Below, piece after piece: positions 23,850-26,381 of a DNA stretch of 64,000 nt. The first letter of the stretch is position 1. Each line of letters starts with the position of its first letter. The notes beneath the pieces were generated by a model. The model searched no databases. It was not told the DNA's origin and saw only the letters and a program-made list of their open reading frames with translations. Location: assembly GCA_002551355.1 (NCBI GenBank), contig NTHE01000012.1, forward strand, positions 62,001 through 126,000, read 5' to 3'. Made by a program: the position numbers and the translations under genes. The stretch is from Streptomyces sp. man185. GTDB taxonomy: Bacteria > Actinomycetota > Actinomycetes > Streptomycetales > Streptomycetaceae.

Positions 23850-24497
23850 ATGACCCCCGCCCCCCGCCGCACCCACCACGCCGCCCCGCCCCGCGAGGAC
23901 GTCCTCGCCGCCGCCATGGCCACCGTCGCCGAGCGCGGGCTCGACGGGCTGACCATGGCCGGGCTCGGGCGGGAGGTGGGAATGAGCAGCGGGCACCTTC
24001 TCTACTACTTCCGCACCAAGGACGAACTGCTCCTCCAGACCCTGGAGTGGAGCGAGCGGCGCCTCGGGGCCGAGCGAAGCGGCCTCCTCGCCCGGCCGGG
24101 GACGGCCCGGGAGCGGCTGGAGGCGTACATCGACCTCTACCTCCCCGCCGGTCACCGGGACCCCCACTGGACCCTCTGGCTGGAGGTCTGGGGTCGCTCC
24201 CAGAACGCCGACGACGACGCCCGCGCCCGGCAGGCCGCCATCGAGGGGGTCTGGCACCGCGACCTGGTGGCGCTGCTCGCCGAGGGCATGTCGCGCGGCG
24301 AGTTCCGGCCGGTGGACGCCGACCGGTTCGCGGCCCGGCTGCGGGCGCTGCTCGACGGGTTCAGCATCCACGTGACGGTCGGGATCCCGGGGACGGGCCG
24401 GGAACAGGTGCTCGCCCAGGCGGCGGAGTTCCTGGACGAGACGCTGACGCCGGGGTCCGCGAAGAGCGATGCGACCAGCGTCACGACCGCATCCTGA
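23850..24497 (+). CDS. TetR-family repressor, BetI-like
   Basis: A 215-residue protein. The N-terminal helix-turn-helix reads LAAAMATVAERGLDGLTMAGLGREVGMSSGHLLYYFRTKDELL. The C-terminal ligand domain has the W-rich WTLWLEVWGRSQ typical of the BetI_C branch. It is cotranscribed with agmatine deiminase (39 bp apart) and probably represses that operon through the TTAGA...TCTAA palindrome at 22740. The gene end is duplicated: ACCAGCGTCACGACCGCATC near the stop recurs with two changes at 24501-24520. Confidence 0.88.
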   Translation: MTPAPRRTHHAAPPREDVLAAAMATVAERGLDGLTMAGLGREVGMSSGHLLYYFRTKDELLLQTLEWSERRLGAERSGLLARPGTARERLEAYIDLYLPAGHRDPHWTLWLEVWGRSQNADDDARARQAAIEGVWHRDLVALLAEGMSRGEFRPVDADRFAARLRALLDGFSIHVTVGIPGTGREQVLAQAAEFLDETLTPGSAKSDATSVTTAS

Positions 24498-24539
24498 GAC
24501 ACCGGCGTCACGACCGCGTCACTGTGCGAGACTTCTGCC

Positions 24540-24590
24540 GTGTCCTCGTTCGTCATGATTATTGGCAGCAGGCGCGCCGGTCCGCAGTGA
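24540..24590 (+). CDS. Ile-codon leader peptide of the cimA attenuator
   Basis: GTG at 24540 opens a 16-residue peptide, MSSFVMIIGSRRAGPQ. An internal ATG at 24555 would give MIIGSRRAGPQ. Two consecutive ATT isoleucine codons are striking, because ATT is rare in this genome (ATC is nearly universal in the neighbouring genes). GAGACT (24528-24533) could be a -10 element that would make the GTG transcript leaderless. The peptide ends 54 nt before a perfect terminator hairpin and 183 nt before cimA, whose product feeds isoleucine synthesis. This fits ribosome-mediated attenuation sensing Ile-tRNA. Confidence 0.7.
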   Translation: MSSFVMIIGSRRAGPQ

Positions 24591-24644
24591 CCGCCCGTAC
24601 CACCCCGTACGGCGCGGCCATCGTGCCCCAGACCCGCGCGCAGA

Positions 24645-24670
24645 CCTCTCGCACCCGCGAGGGGTTTTTT
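24645..24670 (+). terminator. Attenuator hairpin upstream of cimA
   Basis: An 8-bp stem, CCTCTCGC (24645-24652) with GCGAGGGG (24657-24664), one G-U pair, a 4-nt loop and six T residues. Nearly the same architecture as the ilvB attenuator (CCCCTCG...CGAGGGG TTTTTT). Confidence 0.85.
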
Positions 24671-24773
24671 CGTTTTCCGGCCCGCACCCGGGCCGGGGCG
24701 GCGCGCGCGGGATGATGGGGGCAAGTGGAACCCGATCGTCCGGATCCACTCATCCGACAGGAGCCAGATCAGC

Positions 24774-26381
24774 ATGACCACCAAGGCCAACGCCACCGAC
24801 GACAGTTTCCATGTCTTCGACACCACACTGCGCGACGGTGCTCAGCGTGAGGGCATCAACCTGACGGTCGCCGACAAGCTGACCATCGCCCGTCATCTGG
24901 ACACCTTCGGTGTGGGGTACATCGAGGGCGGCTGGCCGGGGGCCAACCCCCGCGACACCGAGTTCTTCGCCCGAGCCCAGCAGGAGATCGAGTTCGAGAA
25001 CGCCCAGCTCGTGGCGTTCGGCGCGACCCGCAGGGCCGGCGGCAGCGCGGCCGAGGACCCCCAGGTGAAGGCGCTCCTGAACTCCGGCGCCCCGGTGATC
25101 ACACTGGTCGCCAAGTCCCATGACCGCCATGTCGAGCTTGCCCTGCGCACCACCCTGGACGAGAACCTGGAGATGGTCCGCGACACCGTCTCCCACCTGC
25201 GCGAACAGGGCCGCCGCGTCTTCGTGGACTGCGAGCACTTCTTCGACGGCTACCGCGCCAACGCCGAGTACGCCAAGGCCGTGGTGCGTACCGCGTACGA
25301 GGCAGGCGCCGAGGTCGTCATCCTCTGCGACACCAACGGCGGCATGCTCCCCGCCCAGGTCCAGGCCGTCGTCTCCACCGTCATCGCCGACACCGGCGCC
25401 CGCCTCGGCATCCACGCCCAGGACGACACCGGCTGCGCCGTCGCCAACACCCTGGCCGCCGTCGACGCCGGTGCCACCCACGTCCAGTGCACGGCCAACG
25501 GCTACGGCGAGCGGGTCGGCAACGCCAACCTCTTCCCCGTCGTCGCCGCCCTGGAACTCAAGTACGGCATGAAGGTGCTGCCCGAGGGCGCACTCGCCGA
25601 GATGACCCGCATCTCGCACGCCATCGCCGAGGTCGTCAACCTCACCCCCTCCACCCACCAGCCGTACGTGGGCGTCTCGGCCTTCGCCCACAAGGCCGGG
25701 CTGCACGCCTCCGCGATCAAGGTCGACCCCGACCTGTACCAGCACATCGACCCGGAGCTGGTCGGCAACACCATGCGGATGCTGGTCTCCGACATGGCCG
25801 GCCGCGCCTCCATCGAGCTGAAGGGCAAGGAGCTCGGCATCGACCTCGGCGACGACCGCGCCCTGGTCGGCCGGGTCGTGGAGCGGGTCAAGGAGCGAGA
25901 ACTCCAGGGCTACACCTACGAGGCCGCCGACGCCTCCTTCGAACTCCTGCTGCGCGGCGAAGTCGAGGGCCGGGCCCGGCGCTACTTCCGTACGGAGTCC
26001 TGGCGGGCGATCGTCGAGGACCGCCCCGACGGCACCCACGCAAACGAGGCCACCGTGAAGCTCTGGTCCAAGGGCGAGCGGATCGTCGCGACCGCCGAGG
26101 GCAACGGCCCGGTGAACGCGCTGGACCGGGCGCTCCGCGTCGCCCTGGAGCGGATCTACCCGCAGCTCGCCAAGCTGGAGCTGGTCGACTACAAGGTCCG
26201 CATCCTGGAGGGCCGCACCGGCACCGAGTCCACCACCCGGGTGCTCATCACCACCGGGGACGGCACCGGCGACTGGGCGACCGTGGGGGTCGCCGAGAAC
26301 GTCATCGCCGCCTCCTGGCAGGCGCTGGAGGACGCGTACACCTACGGACTGCTGCGCGCGGGCGTCGAGCCCACGGAGTAG
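24774..26381 (+). CDS. cimA: Citramalate synthase
   Basis: A 535-residue member of the isopropylmalate/citramalate synthase family. It condenses pyruvate with acetyl-CoA to (R)-citramalate, giving 2-ketobutyrate for isoleucine without threonine. DTTLRDGAQREGINLTVADK, the metal-binding HAQDDTGCAVAN, and FAHKAGLHASAI are present, and a C-terminal LeuA-like dimer domain (about 400-530) carries feedback control in this family. The QREG form of the DGxQxxG motif and the length favour CimA over LeuA. The upstream leader with Ile codons supports an isoleucine role. Often annotated as a second LeuA. Confidence 0.88.
   Translation: MTTKANATDDSFHVFDTTLRDGAQREGINLTVADKLTIARHLDTFGVGYIEGGWPGANPRDTEFFARAQQEIEFENAQLVAFGATRRAGGSAAEDPQVKALLNSGAPVITLVAKSHDRHVELALRTTLDENLEMVRDTVSHLREQGRRVFVDCEHFFDGYRANAEYAKAVVRTAYEAGAEVVILCDTNGGMLPAQVQAVVSTVIADTGARLGIHAQDDTGCAVANTLAAVDAGATHVQCTANGYGERVGNANLFPVVAALELKYGMKVLPEGALAEMTRISHAIAEVVNLTPSTHQPYVGVSAFAHKAGLHASAIKVDPDLYQHIDPELVGNTMRMLVSDMAGRASIELKGKELGIDLGDDRALVGRVVERVKERELQGYTYEAADASFELLLRGEVEGRARRYFRTESWRAIVEDRPDGTHANEATVKLWSKGERIVATAEGNGPVNALDRALRVALERIYPQLAKLELVDYKVRILEGRTGTESTTRVLITTGDGTGDWATVGVAENVIAASWQALEDAYTYGLLRAGVEPTE

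Follow-up and report, generated by a model that had tools for sequence, protein, structure and literature searches.

The window analysed here is a 64,000-nucleotide stretch of the genome of Streptomyces sp. man185 (contig NTHE01000012.1, positions 62,001 to 126,000 of the forward strand). It contains cimA, the gene for citramalate synthase, which begins with the ATG at 24774, and a TetR-like gene that ends at 24497. Between the two lie a short leader ORF, two nested helices and an intrinsic terminator (Table 1). The leader ORF consists of 16 codons and a stop codon (GTG TCC TCG TTC GTC ATG ATT ATT GGC AGC AGG CGC GCC GGT CCG CAG TGA). Among the isoleucine codons of 12 genes in the window (ilvC is not in the count), 203 are ATC, two are ATT and one is ATA. 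Both the 16-codon leader with its adjacent ATT pair upstream of cimA and the near-exclusive use of ATC in the neighbouring genes had been pointed out in a first-pass annotation of this DNA, and both are confirmed.

Table 1. Features of the cimA upstream region, given in positions of the window.
Feature	Position	Strand	Remarks
Putative extended −10-like promoter element TG-C-GAGACT	24525..24533	+	6 nt 5′ of the leader start
Leader ORF MSSFVMIIGSRRAGPQ	24540..24590	+	GTG start; probably leaderless; start conserved
Candidate sensor codons ATT ATT (Ile-Ile), codons 7-8 of the leader	24558..24563	+	sequence and conservation
P1 5′ strand GCGCGCCGGTC	24572..24582	+	begins 8 nt past the second Ile codon
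Hairpin P2 within P1	24583..24625	+	covariation and fold; family feature
P1 3′ strand GACCCGCGCGC	24631..24641	+	adjoins the terminator directly
Intrinsic terminator hairpin AGACCTCTCGC-ACCC-GCGAGGGGTTT	24642..24667	+	T run to 24670
cimA, citramalate synthase	24774..26381	+	TIGR00977 equivalog, 640.6 bits (cut-off 450)

The putative −10 element reads TG-n-CAGACT in many relatives. Among 93 distinct Streptomyces sequences, 80 have the pattern TGnYAnnnT 6-7 nt 5′ of the leader start; outside Streptomyces, 65 of 83 loci have it 6-8 nt 5′ of the start codon. The hexamer of the window itself, GAGACT, fails this pattern. Because such an element is found a short distance 5′ of the start codon, transcription probably starts at the leader itself, which would make the transcript leaderless. 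The ATG at codon 6, directly in front of the Ile codons, was also considered as the start of the leader. This codon is ATG in 91 of 96 haplotypes and ACG in the other five, it is CTG, CTC or GTG in other genera, and the GTG start is kept where the ATG is replaced. It was therefore rejected as the start.

The sequence upstream of the promoter and the one between terminator and cimA also contain conserved stretches. GCATCCTGAGAC at 24489-24500 overlaps the stop codon of the tetR gene and is well conserved 5′ of the leader promoter in Streptomyces; its TGAGAC is also kept in other genera of the family. The sequence GCATCNTGAGAC just upstream was considered as a regulon motif and discarded, as the genome holds two exact copies, the second of them among ORFs without identification. 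A site for NdgR in the same stretch was discarded as well, since it differs from the published motif as given in the accessible text of PMC4340878. Downstream of the terminator, the stretch 24711-24770 contains GATGATGGGGGCAAGTGGA and, ahead of AGGAG, a possible hairpin (GTGGA..TCCAC), both of them conserved in many of 45 sequences. This stretch is possibly a second promoter or a structure of the 5′ UTR. At four loci (L003, L024, L035 and L049) palindrome-like inserts of varied lengths occupy nearly the same position in the cimA 5′ UTR, past GTGGAGC or GTGGAAC.

The long-range helix P1 is formed by part of the leader ORF and the nucleotides immediately before the terminator (GCGCGCcGGUC pairs with GACCcGCGCGC). 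The hairpin P2 enclosed by it is replaced by a shorter loop in most of the other families read. The terminator follows with a stem of 11 bp and six T residues at 24665-24670. The first-pass annotation had reported a perfect stem with a T6 tail before cimA; the T6 tail and its position hold, whereas the stem contains one U·G and one G·U pair and is not perfect. P1 and the P2 hairpin inside it had been missed in that reading. The RNA from 24540 to 24670 (131 nt) has a folding energy of −63.0 kcal/mol compared to −45.6 ± 3.6 kcal/mol for shuffled sequences (z = −4.9), and none of 200 dinucleotide shuffles was as low as the native sequence.

P1 and the terminator are directly adjacent, with a linker of 0 nt in 75 of 93 loci, and 78 of 83 loci have the start of P1 5-8 nt past the last Ile codon. 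The stop codon of the leader is located before P1 in 35 of 83 loci and within or past the P1 5′ strand in the remaining 48. Thus, the spacing between the Ile codons and P1 is kept, but the position of the stop codon is not.

Covariation was analysed in an alignment of 79 hand-chosen leaders that was fitted to the structure, and in this alignment 98.0% of the cells of P1 and the terminator are paired. Changes on both sides occur in 15 of the 21 pairs and affect 139 cells, compared to 27 expected from shuffles. The covariation score is 0.315; shuffled alignments reach 0.153 and slid ones at most 0.100. One of the five measures, the number of pair types, is unremarkable, since 54 of 500 shuffles were as high. 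P1 was in addition analysed without a structural model, with the strands anchored on the four outer bases only (five of 93 loci were dropped because the anchors were missing). In 31 distinct strand pairs, drawn from 20 families, positions 5-10 pair in register at 4.87 of 6 positions, while 1,000 cross-family swaps averaged 3.79 and never exceeded 4.29. An unaided P1 finder picked another helix in several loci of the family (for instance L151, L158 and L159).

Within the genus and its nearest relatives we compared 110 loci (30 + 80, with some genomes represented twice), which correspond to 95 distinct leaders. All 110 loci have a start codon precisely 18 nt upstream of the first Ile codon; it is GTG in 109 of them and ATG in one. 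The codon pair is ATT-ATT in 64 loci, ATT-ATC in 40, ATT-ATG in five and ATT-ACC in one, all of them recovered with a search pattern that required ATTA[TC] and that every one of the 110 loci passed. Codons 2-5 of the Streptomyces leaders vary in sequence. In one Streptomyces clade a deletion of one nucleotide past the Ile codons shifts the reading frame, so that conservation in this clade does not extend to the downstream peptide. At the RNA level, 38 diverse Streptomyces sequences have a P1 that is invariant on both strands, including a constant C·C mismatch; P2 covaries in these sequences, and one terminator pair switches from C-G to U-A.

A covariance model (R1), trained on the Streptomyces Ile leaders, was then used to follow the element through the family and the class. 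At E ≤ 1 it matched all 249 genomes of the family, covering all 17 genera; the weakest match, with an E value of only 0.2, comes from an incomplete genome (G326). At E ≤ 0.01 matches were found in 142 of 296 class genomes and in 64 of 114 genera; cimA is present in 236 of these 296 genomes. Two of the 199 genomes of the genus (G081 and G177) are the only ones without a cimA match at 1e-100; they are rated 100% complete, yet consist of 700 and 620 contigs. From the class we fetched 80 matches, hand-picked from the score list, of which 71 are located 5′ of cimA, five 5′ of ilvB and two 5′ of genes that we take to be leuS (L208 and L209). The remaining two precede a gene for threonine ammonia-lyase and an ORF of 107 amino acids, respectively. 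The latter locus (L213, 1324-1424, minus strand) has the leader MFALVIIM, and its ORF has no NCBIfam match; the same genome also contains an Ile leader at cimA (L212).

Altogether, cimA upstream regions with the element were read from 27 of the 46 families sampled, and the end of the element is −11 to 99 nt away from cimA in all 40 class loci measured. Leaders with Ile-Ile were found at 20 of 20 cimA loci of the family and at 64 of 71 of the class, the other seven carrying an unpaired Ile; these counts are biased in favour of Ile-Ile by the training of R1 and by an ORF rule that favours an ORF with Ile-Ile where one exists. The bias is offset by the result of this rule at ilvB and by the Ile leaders recognised by eye in five cimA upstream regions without an R1 match, both given below. 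Typical leaders are VLAASIIT, VHRTAIIIN, MFYGLLIIGRRAG, MPSQVLIIVRRAG and VQSALIIT, with two or three consecutive Ile codons shortly 5′ of P1. In 86 of 88 leaders one or more codons of the Ile run are ATT. The length from the start codon to the Ile codons varies by whole codons only (20 family loci), and the Ile codons are kept across the 27 families although the rest of the leader peptide drifts. The element also remains with cimA where the upstream gene is IlvE-like rather than TetR-like. Among 20 cimA upstream regions from genomes without an R1 match, 15 lack the element on inspection by eye and five (L268, L271, L276, L280 and L287) show an Ile leader, a GCGC helix and a terminator. The 15 regions without the element include eight of family f18, and small f25 genomes with ilvE-like sequence up to cimA. 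The leader, its Ile codons and the hairpins are thus conserved well beyond Streptomyces and with compensatory changes, which is what the first-pass annotation had wanted to see in an alignment of cimA upstream regions. We conclude that an Ile leader with two covarying, abutting hairpins is real and widely conserved.

Leaders with other sensor codons precede other genes. In the window itself the ilvB leader at 1541-1582 reads MRTRILVLGKRVG and thus contains Ile, Leu and Val, and it likewise has a long-range helix adjoining its terminator. The likeness of the cimA leader to this ilvB attenuator had been recognised before; it is correct and extends to the helix that abuts the terminator. None of the five ilvB matches of R1 has Ile-Ile according to the same ORF rule. 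In the window's own genome R1 also finds a Leu leader (CTT CTG CTT) upstream of a leuS-like gene (L208, 1317-1433, minus strand; C135:5116-5232), which has the same layout of helix next to terminator. In family f18 an Ile leader is located at ilvA, where it was found at 22 of 24 loci (L290-L313, for instance L297, L298 and L306). These leaders (VPQHLMIIN, VPQHLMVIT, VTVHEMAIT and others) have one or two Ile codons, followed by the GCGCG start of a helix and a terminator. No such leader was seen in about 230 nt read upstream of each of eight f18 cimA genes (L272, L273, L274, L277, L279, L282, L284 and L285), all from genomes already without an R1 match. At six of these loci (L272, L273, L274, L277, L279 and L282) another GC-rich stretch (for instance GTCGCGCGTTCCGGTCGCTGACCC) recurs before cimA; an Rfam search of the conserved f18 stretch 5′ of cimA gave no match. 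Conversely, the 5′ sequence inspected at the ilvA-like gene in the genome that contains the window showed no Ile leader. The absence of Ile-Ile from the ilvB matches and the presence of Ile codons at f18 ilvA show that the sensor codons follow the product of the pathway. The leader is located at one or the other entry of the isoleucine pathway, at ilvA in f18 and at cimA in most families read. That families differ in which of the two genes carries the module suggests a placement at the carbon-committing step of isoleucine synthesis.

From the leader, its codons and the adjoining hairpins we infer that the element is an Ile-specific, ribosome-mediated transcription attenuator of cimA, a reading that has good comparative support and to which we assign a probability of about 0.78. 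Judging from the spacing of the −10 element, RNA polymerase would start at or next to the GTG, and the ribosome would load on the leaderless start codon. With the first Ile codon empty in the A site, the front edge of the ribosome would be near the start of P1; decoding of the Ile codons and moving on would carry it onto P1. The charging of Ile-tRNA would thus decide whether P1 forms, with P1 as the ribosome-gated hairpin and the next hairpin 3′ as the terminator. With plentiful Ile-tRNA the ribosome would pass, P1 would be disturbed and the terminator would halt transcription before cimA. The assumption that P1 acts against the terminator is borrowed from the model proposed for ilvBNC of Corynebacterium glutamicum and may apply here by analogy; together with the antiterminators described for the leuS leaders, we regard that model as the most useful guide, although our folds do not indicate how P1 would weaken the terminator.

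The switching step was approached by folding the leaders with a ribosome placed at different positions, assuming a front edge of 11 nt (83 of 93 loci; ten were dropped because anchors were missing). The mean probability of P1 is 0.92 in the free RNA and 0.65 when the first Ile codon occupies the A site; with the last Ile codon there it is 0.06, and with the stop codon 0.00. According to the drop from 0.65 to 0.06, decoding of the Ile codons moves the ribosome onto P1, as a sensor needs. The terminator is part of the predicted folds in each of the four ribosome states, with means of 0.98-1.00 and a lowest single value of 0.15 (one locus, last Ile codon in the A site), and it forms in every masked fold of six sequences. 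The predicted folding does not make P1 and the terminator mutually exclusive, and P1 is blocked as well while the ribosome stands at the last Ile codon, so that the switch could work in either direction.

These equilibrium folds, which do not include kinetics, revealed no conserved antiterminator that would compete with the terminator. Two candidates were rejected. Pairing of the P1 3′ strand with the 3′ arm of the terminator (CGCG with CGCG) is lost where the terminator reads CTCGT..ACGAG; pairing of the 5′ end of the leader (CTCTCG) with the terminator is possible in part of Streptomyces and absent in the clade starting with GTGCTTGCT. As far as predicted folds can tell, the element would therefore not be a classical three-segment attenuator of the trp/his type. 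It does have the sequence features of a leader-peptide attenuator in the broad sense, namely an ORF with pathway codons that is presumably translated, a peptide that drifts around its conserved Ile codons, and an intrinsic terminator. Its layout is the actinobacterial one with two hairpins, a helix a few nucleotides past the sensor codons and a terminator abutting it. A more far-reaching version, which we put forward tentatively and with some doubt, is that a class-wide Ile module guards the gene that opens the pathway, that the position of the ribosome on the Ile codons gates the hairpin next to the terminator, and that this stacked pair of hairpins, rather than a refolding, sets termination without a competing antiterminator. 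If true, such a stacked-pair switch would explain the non-classical behaviour of the same layout at ilvB of Streptomyces coelicolor.

The direction of the switch might be the reverse, with Ile-tRNA still being the signal. P1 would then stack on the terminator and strengthen it; a ribosome on the Ile codons would keep P1 open and allow read-through, and after its release P1 would close and transcription would stop. The missing linker between the two hairpins fits this reading, as does the low probability of P1 with a ribosome at the last Ile codon compared to the free RNA. However, the terminator folds on its own with a probability near 1, P1 is still largely formed with a ribosome at the first Ile codon (0.65), and the hairpin in the same place at C. 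glutamicum ilvBNC has been proposed to be an antiterminator (PMC11857589, accessible text). We consider a reverse switch unlikely, but it is the strongest competitor of the Ile-specific attenuator in which P1 acts against the terminator.

It is less probable again that the leader is real and its codons are not the sensor, regulation being exerted by ribosome loading on the leaderless start, by ppGpp or by another factor acting on P1 and the terminator. For the ilvB leader of S. coelicolor, which has the same layout, the accessible text of PMC1262725 reports that changes of the candidate codons left regulation unaffected. Among published results, this one gives most reason for caution about the simple model. 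In addition, the invariant P1 of the 38 Streptomyces sequences and the frame change in one clade indicate that the RNA is conserved beyond coding needs. Against this, the Ile codons persist in 27 families despite the drift of the peptide, and the identity of the codons tracks the product of the gene.

The length and strong structure of the leader would also suit a riboswitch, a T-box or a protein-binding RNA with an incidental ORF. This is very improbable, as no Rfam family reaches its gathering score in the whole window and a local search found no T-box at E ≤ 1, its sole weak match being an unrelated sRNA on the other strand. Moreover, the start codon, the length changes by whole codons and the Ile codons are conserved, and the short loop that P1 encloses in most other families leaves little room for a ligand pocket. 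That the element, located 3′ of the tetR-like gene, is merely the ordinary terminator of that gene next to a chance ORF can be set aside almost completely, because it stays with cimA where the upstream gene is IlvE-like, ends close to cimA in all 40 loci measured and has a conservation of Ile codons that would not be expected.

In actinomycetes cimA provides the threonine-independent entry into isoleucine. Branched-chain keto acids are, in addition, a source of starter units for fatty acids and polyketides. If cimA had an Ile switch of its own, this would be a missing control point at that entry and a simple handle for engineering. As a compact, widespread and Ile-only element, it would also be a clean system for studying whether and how leaders of the ilvB, leuS and cimA type attenuate in Streptomyces, in which the published result for ilvB points the other way. 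The cimA gene of S. coelicolor is presumably SCO5529. Lowered expression of SCO5529 is mentioned in the accessible text of a study of Lon protease (PMC13033682). Eight attenuators of Streptomyces lividans are given in the accessible text of PMC8079986, and cimA is not among them. Neither cimA nor citramalate is mentioned in the accessible main text of PMC11109978, in which some of the new RNAs come from Streptomyces, and both words are absent from that of the survey of Actinobacteria in PMC1262725. A search of the open-access literature on cimA and ilvA leaders and on premature termination in Streptomyces, covering titles and the beginnings of abstracts, found no cimA attenuator. This agrees with the initial impression that attenuation of cimA is undescribed in Streptomyces, and an Ile-coded cimA leader is apparently unreported.

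The element can be compared with several known systems, each as described in the accessible text of the paper cited. The ileS T-boxes of Actinobacteria (PMC1262725) are also Ile-related 5′ RNAs, but they inhibit the initiation of translation; the cimA element has an ORF and a terminator, and no T-box match was found in the window. With the ilvB1 leader of Mycobacterium tuberculosis (PMC13236596) it shares a short ORF with codons for branched-chain amino acids and a terminator. With the codons of that leader replaced, the reporter remained low and unresponsive; its sensor is LVVI and, in contrast to the cimA leader, a mutually exclusive antiterminator and terminator have been described for it. 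The Streptomyces leaders of ilvB (ilvL) and leuS (leuL2) resemble the cimA leader in their sensor codons and in a long-range helix that is followed immediately by a C-rich/CUCG terminator; their short peptide is leaderless, as that of cimA probably is (PMC8079986, PMC1262725). R1 cross-matches the leuS leader in the window's own genome and ilvB leaders in other genomes. These leaders differ in the sensor, which is Ile/Val/Leu or Leu, and in the genes that follow, and the leuS leaders have been called classical, with antiterminator hairpins (PMC1262725). The attenuator of C. glutamicum ilvBNC (PMC11857589) differs from the cimA leader, which senses Ile only and precedes cimA, in that its two hairpins overlap by a GCC trinucleotide and an additional hairpin before them has been proposed, whereas the cimA leader has no conserved overlap. 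The effect of mutations in ilvBNC is mostly explained by the stability of the terminator. The two leaders have in common the control codons shortly before a hairpin and the base of this hairpin lying against the terminator; the leader peptide is leaderless in ilvBNC and probably so at cimA.
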